DNA from: a virus
Length of the DNA: 32,171 nt
Strand: one strand, 5' to 3'
Virus record (IMG/VR): IMGVR_UViG_3300030943_000113
Location: 1-32,171 of that record
Of this stretch, positions 6,176-24,066 are shown piece after piece. The notes beneath the pieces are model-generated. The model saw nothing but the letters and a program-made list of their open reading frames with translations. It was not told the DNA's origin and did no database searches. Within the stretch, counting starts at the first letter, position 1; every line of letters begins with the position of its first letter. Position numbers and translations under genes: made by a program.

Positions 6176-7039
6176 TTATTTACCTTCTATTTTCTTTCCT
6201 AAATTCTTTTTATAATCAGGAATATTAACTAATTTCATGCCGTAATTATCTACACCTTTCGGTATTATCAATCCTTCTTTATGAATTAATCTATTTTTTG
6301 CGAATGGTCGGTAATCGACACTGTGTTGCCAACGATGAAATTTCCAAACAACTTCAGTTATAGCAGGATATAATTTTTGTAAAGCTTCTGCCATTTTTAA
6401 TCTTCCATCCTCAATTAAATATAAATTCTCTGTATTTCCACCTTTTACGGTCATAGTAGTTGCTTTACATTGAGCAAAAGCATTAACTAATATCGTGCAC
6501 CATCTATCCTTTAGAGCCATTAAGCATACATCGGTATCATCATTATATATACTTCTCCAACGATATGGAATAGAATTATTTACTAATGTACAAGAATAAA
6601 TACGTGTATTTAAAAAGAAAGGTGGTTGTGGGTCTTTTCTACAACTAAAGAAATCATATTGTAATCCGGAATATGCTACATTTGTATATCTATCTGTAAA
6701 ATCTTCTACACAACGAAATATTGTTCCCGAAGCAACCGGATAATGCATATTTTTATTAAGTCGTAAAAATCCACGAATATTATCATCTAATTGCCAGTGA
6801 CGAGCAAATCCTTTTTTTATAGAATGTTCCATAATCCAACAACGACTACCAATTAATTTCATATCATCCTTTGGTAGAACTAAAATCTTTTTGGGATTAA
6901 TTACTTTAGCATAATTATCGTATTCTGAAGGTTCTACAACAATTTTATATGGAACTTTCATCTTTTCCAAAGCTTTACTTGTAAGTCTGCTTTCCCATCT
7001 ACCTTTCGATGGAATATAAATAGGGTAACGTGGATTCAT
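6176..7039 (-). CDS. TET-associated-type glycosyltransferase (TAGT-like), putative DNA base glycosylation
   Basis: 287 residues from the ATG at 7039, which overlaps the upstream stop as ATGA. A start 15 codons upstream is possible but would bury the junction. The N-terminus PIYIPSKGR, then VVEPSEYDNY (35-43) and HWQLDDNIRG (81-90), with LDDN as the probable nucleotide-sugar/metal motif, match my memory of TET-associated glycosyltransferases, which add sugars to modified pyrimidines in phage DNA. A second acidic motif, NDDTDVCLM, lies further on. The substrate base is unknown because no TET oxygenase or hydroxymethylase lies in this window. It is the last gene of a three-gene overlapping cassette. 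Confidence 0.78.
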   Translation of the reverse strand: MNPRYPIYIPSKGRWESRLTSKALEKMKVPYKIVVEPSEYDNYAKVINPKKILVLPKDDMKLIGSRCWIMEHSIKKGFARHWQLDDNIRGFLRLNKNMHYPVASGTIFRCVEDFTDRYTNVAYSGLQYDFFSCRKDPQPPFFLNTRIYSCTLVNNSIPYRWRSIYNDDTDVCLMALKDRWCTILVNAFAQCKATTMTVKGGNTENLYLIEDGRLKMAEALQKLYPAITEVVWKFHRWQHSVDYRPFAKNRLIHKEGLIIPKGVDNYGMKLVNIPDYKKNLGKKIEGK

Positions 7040-7881
7040 GAGAATAATGAATTTAAGGGTTTTCGTATTGATACTTTTTTCCAATATGTAGGTCGGTTAT
7101 TCCACAAAGTAGTTTTTACTTTCTCAAATCCATGAGATCGTAAAGTATCATTAAAAAGTTTACTAATTTCTTTTCCAGTATATTCAGCTTTTCCGTGGAA
7201 ATATTTAATAAAATGCCCTACCGATAAGGCATTAAAAGCATTAGCTATTATTAAATATTTTGGTTTTGCAATAGTTAAAATAGAAAGTAAATGTTCTACT
7301 GGTCTTTCTATATGTTCAAAATATTCTGAAGCAAAGATTAAATCTGCTTTGCTTAATTTGTTTAAATCTGAAATAATATAGAAATTATATTTTTTCCCAA
7401 ATTCAGTTGCTATTTTATATTGACTTGTAGTTTCTAAATTAGTACCATAAACATCAGCCTTTGGAAATAATTCTTTCAGAACTCCTGTGGTATATCCAAA
7501 ACCACATCCTAAATCAACTACACTATCTATATTCCCAATATCTTGTATAATGCTTTTATCGGTCAAGGATTTAGGAGAATTAATAGAAAGTAGATATGGA
7601 CGGGAATAGACAATCCAACATGCCCATAAATCACTTAAATAATAAGTTCCATCATATATAGAGTAATCTGGTTTTCCATTCTTTAAAGATTCATACCATT
7701 TAATTTCTGTTTCTTGAAATATTCGTAGTGAATCCCTAACAGATTTATTTCCTTTATAATATTTAATAGCATTTATAGCCAATGAAAAAGCTATATCTTT
7801 ATTAAATACAGAATATTTAGAACACTTTTTAAGGTATTCTAAAAGATCATCTTTTCCGATTTTATTAGATATACTATTCAT
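7036..7881 (-). CDS. Class I SAM-dependent methyltransferase-fold protein
   Basis: 281 residues from the ATG at 7881; an in-frame TTG one codon earlier is less likely. The SAM-binding motif I is VVDLGCGFGY (121-130). It is followed by an acidic strand end and by SEYFEHIERPVEHLL, typical of the post-motif region of Methyltransf-type enzymes. The N-terminal 110 residues are helical and unassigned. The gene overlaps its upstream neighbour by 8 bases and the glycosyltransferase by 4, so the three are probably translated together. It may act on the same DNA base or on the added group; a non-DNA substrate is equally open. Confidence 0.82.
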   Translation of the reverse strand: MNSISNKIGKDDLLEYLKKCSKYSVFNKDIAFSLAINAIKYYKGNKSVRDSLRIFQETEIKWYESLKNGKPDYSIYDGTYYLSDLWACWIVYSRPYLLSINSPKSLTDKSIIQDIGNIDSVVDLGCGFGYTTGVLKELFPKADVYGTNLETTSQYKIATEFGKKYNFYIISDLNKLSKADLIFASEYFEHIERPVEHLLSILTIAKPKYLIIANAFNALSVGHFIKYFHGKAEYTGKEISKLFNDTLRSHGFEKVKTTLWNNRPTYWKKVSIRKPLNSLFS

Positions 7882-8128
7882 CAATATATTTTTTTGATCT
7901 TAATTTCCACTTTGCTATTGGGAACCAAACTGCCCGTGTCTTTACTGTTAGTTTTTGCCCTATTAATTCAGCAAATGTATCTAAATCTTCTTTGGTACGA
8001 AAACTAACTTTTATACTACGAAATGGGGTTAAATCATTTTGTATAAATTCGGGCATCCCTTTCCATTCTTTTTGCCATAAAATAGTTTCCTCCTCATCGA
8101 AAAGAGGTTTTAATTTATCTTTCTTCAT
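7874..8128 (-). CDS. Small conserved phage protein with WKGMPEF motif
   Basis: 84 residues. The core WKGMPEFIQNDLTPFRSIKV, then FAELIGQKLTVKTRAVWFP, resembles a small domain I recall from other phages, next to or fused with DNA-modification or ParB-like genes. That link is from memory and weak. It has no membrane segment or cysteine cluster. It opens the cassette and overlaps the methyltransferase gene by 8 bases, so a role as a partner of those enzymes is a reasonable guess. It ends with TAG, evidence against TAG recoding. Confidence 0.72.
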   Translation of the reverse strand: MKKDKLKPLFDEEETILWQKEWKGMPEFIQNDLTPFRSIKVSFRTKEDLDTFAELIGQKLTVKTRAVWFPIAKWKLRSKKYIDE

Positions 8129-11036: not shown

Positions 11037-11822
11037 TTATTCTTTATATTTCATTTTTGATGTAGTATCACGTCTACTTCGGTTTGAAGTATTTATTGTA
11101 TTAGAATAATTTGTTCTTCTTTGTTGCACATTTTCGGGAAAGACACCTGTCCATCCATTTTCTATTGCCGTATTAATAGCTTCGATACAAATTGGAACGG
11201 GAAATGTACTTAATTTTTTTGCTAATTTTTGACAGGATATTTTTGTAAGTTTTTTTCCTTTTTCTTTGCGGTGGATAATATATTCATTTACGGTTGTTTT
11301 AAATATTTCATCATTACGGAAATTTTCAGGAAATAAATTTAAAAATAAATCAAACACTTCATGCGTACGCGTATTTTTATTTAAAGTATTTATACTATAT
11401 TTACTTAAAGTATTTGTGGTTAATGGAACTACCGGTACGAAAATCGACCCAATGGCATTTTTTCTTTCAATAGCTTTATCATATGCTTTTTGTGTCCAAA
11501 TAAAATTTACTTTAATATAATGTCCTTCAATACTTCCGTTGATACTTCTATTTTGTATGTTTTCAATTAATCCTAATTTAATTAATTGCATTTTGTATTT
11601 TTTAACTTTACCTATACTCCAATTTATTCCTTTAGCAGTATAGGTATTTGTAGCTTTTGGTTGATTAGTTTTTTGCCATTTTGCCGTATAATAGTAAAAA
11701 TAATATAATGCTAATATTTCGGCAAAGTTTGATTGTGCTAAAAGTAAATCTGAAATTAATTCAGAAAATGTAATAGGTACATTCCAAAATCCAGTATCAG
11801 AAGATTCATTTAATTTTTCCAT
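11037..11822 (-). CDS. Winged-helix replication initiator-like protein (DnaD/phage O-like)
   Basis: 261 residues. The N-terminal half has a winged-helix pattern, with a helical stretch ILALYYFYYYTAKWQ and then SIGKVKKYKMQLIKLGLIEN as recognition helix and wing. The C-terminal half contains a Lys-rich segment and a helical region reminiscent of DnaD-like loaders. Order with loader and helicase supports a role in origin recognition. It follows a structured RNA whose 3' arm ends 29 bases before the ATG, so its expression may be controlled at RNA level. Confidence 0.68.
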   Translation of the reverse strand: MEKLNESSDTGFWNVPITFSELISDLLLAQSNFAEILALYYFYYYTAKWQKTNQPKATNTYTAKGINWSIGKVKKYKMQLIKLGLIENIQNRSINGSIEGHYIKVNFIWTQKAYDKAIERKNAIGSIFVPVVPLTTNTLSKYSINTLNKNTRTHEVFDLFLNLFPENFRNDEIFKTTVNEYIIHRKEKGKKLTKISCQKLAKKLSTFPVPICIEAINTAIENGWTGVFPENVQQRRTNYSNTINTSNRSRRDTTSKMKYKE

Positions 11823-11851
11823 TTCTCTTCAGAATAAATTAGACGAAAAAT

Positions 11852-11920
11852 GCCCCCAAAGAAAGATTCAACCGGACAGCCTCCACGCAAACCAATTGAG
11901 GGTATTCTTTCTCTGAGGGC
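11852..11920 (-). ncRNA. Long structured RNA element / terminator-like hairpin before the initiator gene
   Basis: Read on the minus strand, bases 11920-11906 pair with 11866-11852 over 15 continuous positions. After a 6-base internal loop, 11899-11892 pair with 11875-11868 over 8 more, closing a 16-base loop. All four non-Watson-Crick positions are G-U pairs on the minus strand but C-A mismatches on the plus strand, so the RNA is probably the leftward transcript. The 3' arm is followed by ATTTTTCG, as in an intrinsic terminator or attenuator. A 47-codon open frame (11810-11953) overlaps it and remains an alternative explanation. Confidence 0.7.
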
Positions 11921-12064
11921 AATATTTTTATGTACTGAGGTAGTAAAAATCATTATAGAGGTTGTTTTTGATTAAAATCGAATACGAAAGTAATAATACT
12001 ATTTATAATAAAAAAATTTGCGTCTAATTATTTTTAAAAATATTTAAAATAGCTAAAAATCCCT
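11921..12064 (-). promoter_or_regulatory. AT-rich leader/promoter region of the initiator operon
   Basis: 144 bases between the preceding gene and the RNA hairpin. On the minus strand there is a TACTTTCG, one change from TAnnTTTG, and a TATAAT (11952-11957). A similar TTACTTTCG string occurs near 25.0 and 25.1 kb. No unambiguous -33 box was found, so this is only a candidate promoter. Confidence 0.35.
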
Positions 12065-12424
12065 TTATTTAGTACGTTGTACGGCAGGGTACTTATTGCG
12101 AGTTATCGTTTGCTTAGTACGTATAATAGTTTGCTTAGTACGTTGCATTGTAACGGGTTCTATAAAAGGAATCCATTCATGATACCACAAGAATATTTTG
12201 CCGGCAATTCCTTCTACCCAAACCCCATAATAACCGTTTTTGCGGGATTTCCTTGTAGGTCTATCCGTTATAGTATGGATAGAATTTGGCACTATATTAT
12301 TTGTATTATTATGATCGAAGGAATTAAATTCATTATTTTCCCTTGACGGGGCACCTAAAGTAATTTTAATTTGTAAACCTGGTTCAATCCACGTATGCTT
12401 ATCAATTACTACTTTCTTTTTCAT
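12065..12424 (-). CDS. Hypothetical protein, 119 aa, with C-terminal repeats
   Basis: Starts MKKKVVIDKHTWIEPGLQIK. The middle segment GYYGVWVEGIAGKIFLWYHE is probably beta-rich. The C-terminus repeats TKQTI twice, then QRTK, encoded by short tandem DNA repeats. The start overlaps the upstream TGA as ATGA. No family recognised. The repetitive tail suggests recent length variation. Confidence 0.7.
   Translation of the reverse strand: MKKKVVIDKHTWIEPGLQIKITLGAPSRENNEFNSFDHNNTNNIVPNSIHTITDRPTRKSRKNGYYGVWVEGIAGKIFLWYHEWIPFIEPVTMQRTKQTIIRTKQTITRNKYPAVQRTK
12066..12148. repeat. Short tandem repeats, 21-base period
   Basis: GTTTGCTTAGTACGT occurs at 12108-12122 and again at 12129-12143. A third, diverged copy of the TTTAGTACGT part lies near 12067-12077. 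The repeats encode the basic C-terminal tail of the overlapping gene. Confidence 0.75.
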
Positions 12425-21641: not shown

Positions 21642-21704
21642 TGCGTAAATTTTAACAGGAACATCCCTGTACCAGTAAAACCCCCATTCTTGGTAGAATG
21701 GAGG
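21642..21704 (-). promoter_or_regulatory. Terminator-like hairpin, second hairpin and leader variant
   Basis: On the minus strand a 9-bp stem (21681-21704, loop of 6) has one G-U pair that would be C-A on the other strand. It is followed by TTTT and an ACAGG/CCTGT hairpin (21655-21670), then the leader variant. It belongs to the same repeated module family as those at 23.2 and 24.0 kb. Confidence 0.65.
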
Positions 21705-23149: not shown

Positions 23150-23216
23150 TTTGTAAGTTTTAACAGGAACCATTCTCCTGATACCAACAAATCCTCCAAC
23201 CTGGGGAGGTTGGAGG
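23150..23216 (-). promoter_or_regulatory. Intergenic module: perfect hairpin, second hairpin, leader
   Basis: CCTCCAACCT and its exact complement (23193-23202, 23207-23216) flank a 4-base loop. Downstream on the minus strand follow CAGGA/TCCTG (23164-23180) and TTAAAACTTACAAA, then the ATG. Before the stem lies a GAAAATCGAAAATCAAA string shared with the module at 24.0 kb. Confidence 0.7.
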
Positions 23217-23994: not shown

Positions 23995-24066
23995 TTTGTA
24001 AGTTTTTAGCCTTTCAACGTTGTCCGGCTTATACCACCAAAACCTCCAATCTTGGTAGATTGGAGG
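23995..24066 (-). promoter_or_regulatory. Intergenic module: perfect hairpin, second hairpin, leader
   Basis: CCTCCAATCT and its exact complement (24043-24052, 24057-24066) with a 4-base loop are followed on the minus strand by TTTTGGTGGTAT, an AGCC/GGCT stem enclosing the palindrome CAACGTTG, and the leader. Stem plus T-run fits an intrinsic terminator; the downstream half is shared with the other modules. Confidence 0.7.

Follow-up and report, generated by a model that had tools for sequence, protein, structure and literature searches.

In this study, we show by comparison of related phages that a 69-nt hairpin (P2; 11852-11920, minus strand) is conserved as a minus-strand RNA at the same site in front of orthologous replication initiator genes. 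Together with a second hairpin, P2 probably forms a control switch in the initiator mRNA leader of a Bacteroidetes-type phage. We give somewhat better than an even chance to the more specific proposal that P2 is the second hairpin of a 5' leader RNA that acts in cis and adjusts initiator expression through loop-loop contact. The window, i.e. the whole stretch of 32,171 nt that was analysed, is an IMG/VR contig, and one further contig in that database is near-identical to it.

On the minus strand, P2 consists of a 15-bp outer stem (11906-11920 with 11852-11866), an internal loop of 6/1 nt, an 8-bp inner stem (11892-11899 with 11868-11875) and a 16-nt apical loop, which reproduces the 15 plus 8 pairs of the initial annotation. 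The minimum free energy (MFE) of this strand is -33.5 kcal/mol (z -5.2; none of 200 shuffles was as good), compared to -20.0 kcal/mol (z -2.4) for the plus strand. The MFE structure adds a 2-pair GC/GC helix within the apical loop, and the stem can be extended by one U-A pair (11851/11921). In a scan corrected for composition, P2 ranked second in the record among segments of 80 nt, and its GC content is 52% compared to 33% for the record. P2 sits between g119 (12065-12424) and the initiator gene (11037-11822, minus strand). Its end lies 29 nt ahead of the initiator ATG (11822), and directly 3' of it stands ATTTTTCG (11844-11851, minus strand), a possible U-tract that is not kept in the leaders L039 and L034; both the distance and the tail had been annotated correctly. 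All four imperfect positions are G-U on the minus strand, as had also been noted, and with only four positions this wobble bias is by itself weak evidence for selection on RNA.

Strong comparative evidence for RNA structure comes from compensatory changes in L039, the leader of a distant phage with the same gene order and a helicase 83% identical to that of the window. The same 69-nt hairpin is found there, 30 nt ahead of the orthologous O-like initiator gene. All 23 pairs of P2 are kept (15 unchanged, three with one-sided and five with two-sided changes, none broken), with the inner 3' arm displaced by one base relative to the window. The changes preserve G-U as well as Watson-Crick pairs, and the L039 hairpin has two G-U and no A-C. 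The apical loop is the best-kept part of P2, with 2 of 16 positions differing compared to 7 of 30 in the outer stem. In the 47-codon leader open frame (11810-11953, minus strand), which crosses P2 and shares 13 nt with the start of the initiator gene, 13 codon changes alter the amino acid and two are silent; the differences are distributed 10/6/7 over the codon positions, and third positions are not enriched. Because all 23 pairs are kept while the codon changes stand at 13 to two, on this comparison it is the RNA and not the peptide that is under selection at P2. This agrees with the selection on minus-strand RNA structure that had been proposed from the window. A homologue that keeps the frame without the pairing had been named as the case against that proposal, and L039 shows the opposite, with the pairs kept and the peptide drifting.

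The initiator is O-like/DnaD-like (phrog_678, phrog_186); a DnaC-like helicase loader and the helicase come next, in this order. Relatives were collected with an initiator alignment that included a distant relative, which gave 52 viral and five genome loci, and a second alignment extended this set; searches of phage records by DNA and by the initiator protein of the window gave no match. The window-type leader family in IMG/VR has four members: the window, L039, L034 and L036. g119, upstream of the leader, has no Pfam or PHROG match. Its relatives occur only in the phage types of L034 and L036 (63% identity each) and L039 (38%), and it lies directly upstream of the window-type leader in all four phage types. 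L034 and L036 carry a hairpin of the P2 plan ahead of the initiator, in which the outer stem ends in AAAGA/UCUUU and is followed by an asymmetric internal loop and an inner stem; the apical loop is larger than that of the window and contains GGUUUGGAGACU. A covariance model of the window and L039 placed L036 (E 1.8) and L034 (E 3.3) next, at the right place and with insignificant E-values, and a model built from two sequences is a poor judge of their membership. Therefore, the proposed homology of L034 and L036 to the window leader rests on position, synteny and plan, and since MAFFT misaligns their 3' arms, a four-way covariation count is not claimed. A DNA pattern of the conserved loop matched 29 contigs in IMG/VR, with the hairpin only in L039 and in the contig near-identical to the window. 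Among the related loci, a leader gap of at least 100 nt goes with more structure upstream of the initiator than an operonic position does (mean z -2.8 vs -0.9, p 5.5e-4); the operonic control wrongly includes the window, L034, L036 and L110, because their leader frames were counted as upstream genes, and this works against the reported difference. Elsewhere in the window, three hairpins of one pattern (21681-21704, 23193-23216 and 24043-24066, minus strand) have a CCTCC arm, a GGAGG/GGGGG arm, a 4-nt loop and T-rich tails, and those at 21681 and 23193 lie close ahead of possible start codons. At 6176-7884, a TET-associated glycosyltransferase gene (PF20691, E 3e-41) adjoins a methyltransferase-like gene, which hints at hypermodified bases in the phage DNA.

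A promoter of the Bacteroidetes -33/-7 type is predicted upstream of P2 on the minus strand (11985-12016), as TTTT (12013-12016)-N20-TACTTTCG (11985-11992). The published consensus is TTTG/TAnnTTTG (PMC6847099), of which the window matches eight of ten positions, and scores of nine or less are frequent by chance. Perfect scores of 10/10 were found five times compared to 0.3 in shuffles, and lower scores were hardly or not in excess. For this reason, the promoter call in the window is supported by common position and spacing. N20 is also found in L034 (TTTG-TATCTTTG), L036 (TTTG-TATCTTTA), L039 (TTTT-TACCTTTG) and most leaders of a parallel family, group I (N19 in L097; the promoter of L044 was judged by eye). 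These observations support an initiator mRNA that would begin at a Bacteroidetes-type promoter about 157 nt ahead of the initiator, with the transcript start predicted at about 11979, and P2 would thus lie within the 5' leader. Between P2 and the initiator ATG, 29 nt are too short a stretch to hold a further promoter.

The first AUG after the predicted transcript start opens a frame of 47 codons in the window, 41 in L039, 45 in L034 and 47 in L036, and this frame crosses the entire hairpin in all four leaders. It stops at +13, -3, -10 and -1 nt relative to the initiator ATG in the window, L039, L034 and L036, respectively. The chance of such a frame end is 0.12, 0.033, 0.013 and 0.009 in the same order, in a test that was devised after the data had been seen and on leaders that are not fully independent. 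The leader AUG lies in or beside P1, the upstream hairpin described below, in the window and L039, and about 12-25 nt further downstream in L034 and L036. Since L034 and L036 read the corresponding hairpin in different frames, the passage and the end point are kept and the peptide is not. For the 47-codon frame mentioned in the initial annotation, the peptide is not conserved, and what recurs in four of four leaders is a frame ending at the initiator start.

Hairpin P1 (11948-11973, minus strand) has a weak stem in the window, with only five A-U-rich pairs (AATCA/TGATT), and a 16-nt loop, AAAACAACCTCTATAA. Its counterparts are AAAACG/TGTTTT in L039, TTAA/TTAA in L034 (TTAAG/CTTAA by eye) and TTAG/CTAA in L036. 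The P1 loop contains strand A, CCTCTAT (11955-11961, minus strand), which is complementary to strand A' (GTGGAGG; 11880-11886, minus strand), part of the P2 apical loop. The resulting duplex CCUCUAU/GUGGAGG comprises 7 bp including two G-U and is the best that the leader can form with the apical loop (p 0.067). The best loop partner in L039 is UCUCCAAU with GUUGGAGG (p 0.056). In both leaders the complementarity spans 7-8 bp and the pairing strands use the same loop columns, which was not imposed by the method. In L034 (AAGTCTCCAAATCACT/AGTGGTTTGGAGACTT, 16 bp) and L036 (15 bp), the strand is located at the 5' end of the leader and p is 0.0005 in each. The combined p over the four leaders is 1.6e-6 and is dominated by L034 and L036, and the upstream partner strand sits in the P1 loop in all four. 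The pairing strands of L034 and L036 are near-identical between the two, so that there is no covariation at the loop pair, and they could also be inverted repeats acting at the DNA level. Taken together, the four leaders support a complementarity of the P2 apical loop to the P1 loop near the leader 5' end; from the window's own sequence, a contact between the two is suggestive. Over all leaders with a clear stem, a set that mixes in unrelated designs and some operonic loci, the upstream partner strands did better than their shuffled counterparts (combined p 7e-8). Another candidate loop partner, ACGCAAATT, 93 nt upstream, was rejected, since its position, within or upstream of the predicted promoter, precedes the transcript start.

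A parallel arrangement is found in the ten initiator leaders of group I (L030, L031, L035, L044, L045, L097, L104, L110, L128 and L131), in which P1 and P2 occupy the same site in front of the same initiator family, with a Bacteroidetes-type promoter. Their P2 combines a 10-bp stem and a 4-bp inner stem with an AGUA/GAA internal loop that is near-invariant and of the sarcin-ricin/loop-E type. In the alignment, 92% of the P2 cells are paired compared to 63% in shuffles, and 49 cells are doubly changed compared to 16, a value reached by none of 500 shuffles. Strands A and A' form 6-8 Watson-Crick pairs with their own partners, which none of 200,000 permutations reached. Four of the leaders have frames of 16-18 codons that end 7-9 nt ahead of P2. 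The covariance model R1 of this group has one match per phage record, at the initiator, in the ten group I records. A second, weaker R1 match was seen off the initiator in G026, the record of L131 (830-870, minus strand, E 9e-4). The window, L039, L034 and L036 have no R1 match, and neither do 296 genomes from the phylum of a Chlorobiota genome. Both types have plan and site in common, but the window type has 15+8 bp and lacks the AGUA/GAA motif; a sequence relation is not demonstrable and common descent is not claimed. By all appearances, group I is a separate RNA family that has yet to be described. The group I leader L045 scores 27.7 bits (E 8.7e-4) with RF03535 (TEG147), below the gathering score of 56.1, through a GAGUA...GAAA hairpin and U-run. 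This resemblance probably reflects a common terminator-hairpin motif, and the window element gives no match to RF03535. Other large hairpins precede related initiators in L057, L063 and L069, where the loops complement an adjacent upstream strand over 9-13 bp (TCGGACAGA/TCTGTCCGA, GGGCTAACGCATT/AATGTGTTAGCCC and GGGCATCAC/GTGATGCCC, respectively, the last by eye). In L024 (900-1474), which is from the phage that also gave L026 (8764-8806), the terminator-like hairpin GCCCTCAAGG..CCTTGAGGGC TTTTC is followed at about 25 nt by a small gene overlapping the start of the initiator. This gene is HNH-like by eye, without a Pfam match, and is perhaps a mobile gene inserted behind the leader.

How the two hairpins might act can be proposed as follows. 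The leader would belong to an mRNA for initiator, helicase loader and helicase, and would adopt two competing states. In the first, P1 and P2 form and their loops pair, the leader start would be hidden and P2 would stay folded. Initiator expression would then be low, through an early stop of transcription at P2 and/or because ribosomes do not arrive. We take the effect to be repressive on the assumption that paired loops would mask the leader start. In the second state, a ribosome starting on the leader frame would disrupt P1 and melt P2, and the same ribosome would stop beside the initiator AUG and restart there. The leader would thereby fix the amount and timing of the replication initiator. 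The initial idea of an RNA that controls replication is retained here in a narrower form, as a role on the initiator that is backed by position, predicted promoter and synteny; P1, the complementarity of the loops and the promoter had been overlooked in the initial annotation. It is tempting to speculate, with little confidence, that short leader RNAs, through the complementary loops of P1 and P2, also pair in trans with new leaders and not only in cis. More genomes and leader RNAs would then mean less initiator, a copy-number-like feedback inside one RNA that would need no separate antisense gene.

The main alternative, which we consider unlikely, is that P2 is a plain intrinsic terminator of the g119 transcript or an unregulated attenuator and that the loop complementarity in the window arose by chance. 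The stem is G+C-rich and followed by ATTTTTCG, further terminator-like hairpins with T tails occur on the same strand, and a T run ends 9 of 10 group I hairpins. However, the U-run 3' of P2 is good in the window, moderate in L036 and poor in L039 and L034, where the tails read TTCCTTTG and ATTATAATTT, respectively. A terminator, one of the readings in the initial annotation, is therefore not supported as a trait that the window type conserves. Initiator transcripts must cross P2, as the 29 nt left are too short for a promoter, and the best-conserved part is the apical loop, which a terminator does not require. A terminator scan of the window did not report P2, which exceeds the loop limit of the scan.

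Rather improbable is a purely translational role, in which the leader frame is coupled to the initiator and P2 serves as a standby or insulating structure without loop-loop contact. It would account for the frame end points in all four leaders and would fit the report that translation start regions of Bacteroidetes are tuned by RNA structure (PMC6847099), but it leaves the 15-16 bp of loop complementarity in L034 and L036, the matching loop columns in the window and L039 and the conservation of the apical loop unexplained. We are more doubtful still that the hairpin acts as DNA in the replication origin, be it as a single-strand initiation site or as inverted repeats to which the initiator or a repressor binds. 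The hairpin does lie beside the initiator gene and near short repeats (12064-12145), ACGTACTAA occurs three times within 75 bp (12069-12143; 0.25 expected per whole record), and the pairing strands of L034 and L036 are perfect inverted repeats about 100 nt apart. Against this, the wobbles are confined to one strand, the changes in the homologue keep G-U and Watson-Crick pairs, the group I stems have eight G-U compared to two A-C over the ten leaders, and the layout follows promoter, leader and start codon. The ACGTACTAA triplet coincides with the 3' end of g119, with two copies 21 bp apart; these repeats are iteron-like and may mark an origin beside the initiator. A leader cut or terminated into a small RNA acting in trans on other transcripts is very improbable: the hairpin is stable and compact and its loops might pair intermolecularly as well as intramolecularly, but the covariance model R2 has a single match within the window, P2 itself, and no second copy.

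Returning to the two-hairpin leader, the presence of a conserved leader RNA of this design ahead of O-like initiators in phages suggests RNA folding as the means by which phages of Bacteroidetes-type hosts set the onset of replication. Such leader RNAs have at least two sequence-distinct forms that are absent from Rfam: the window and 20 related loci gave only tRNAs, and at the gathering score the window matched no family, the best sub-threshold hit being the MIR861 microRNA model (E 0.51). The open-access literature that was searched gave no account of such a phage leader.

In plasmids, replication initiators governed by structured leaders and coupled leader frames are well known. Plasmid R1 uses the coupled leader peptide of tap-repA and pT181 a conditional terminator, and both need an antisense RNA. 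The phage leader resembles these systems in that the initiator would be controlled in the leader through RNA structure; no antisense promoter stands out over the leaders (best 7-8/10, at inconsistent positions). By analogy, the phage leader would work most like plasmid initiator leaders such as that of ColIb-P9 repZ. Asano and Mizobuchi reportedly described in 1998 that translation of a leader frame opens a hairpin before the replication initiator gene and that a loop and a distant leader segment form an RNA pseudoknot that decides initiator translation. As given in PMC10724649 with reference to Asano and Mizobuchi, initiator synthesis in ColIb-P9 repZ is decided by a leader frame that is translated, together with an RNA pseudoknot. 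The present case differs in being a phage, with an O-like initiator, a predicted Bacteroidetes-type promoter and a proposed pairing from loop to loop; the likeness is one of design, and neither sequence relation nor membership is claimed. As in repZ (repA) of ColIb-P9, IncB and IncL/M, the leader frame runs across the hairpin to a stop beside the start of the initiator in all four leaders, and a pairing of the loop with a distant segment is a candidate for a further shared feature, with p 0.0005 in L034 and L036 and about 0.06 in the window and L039.
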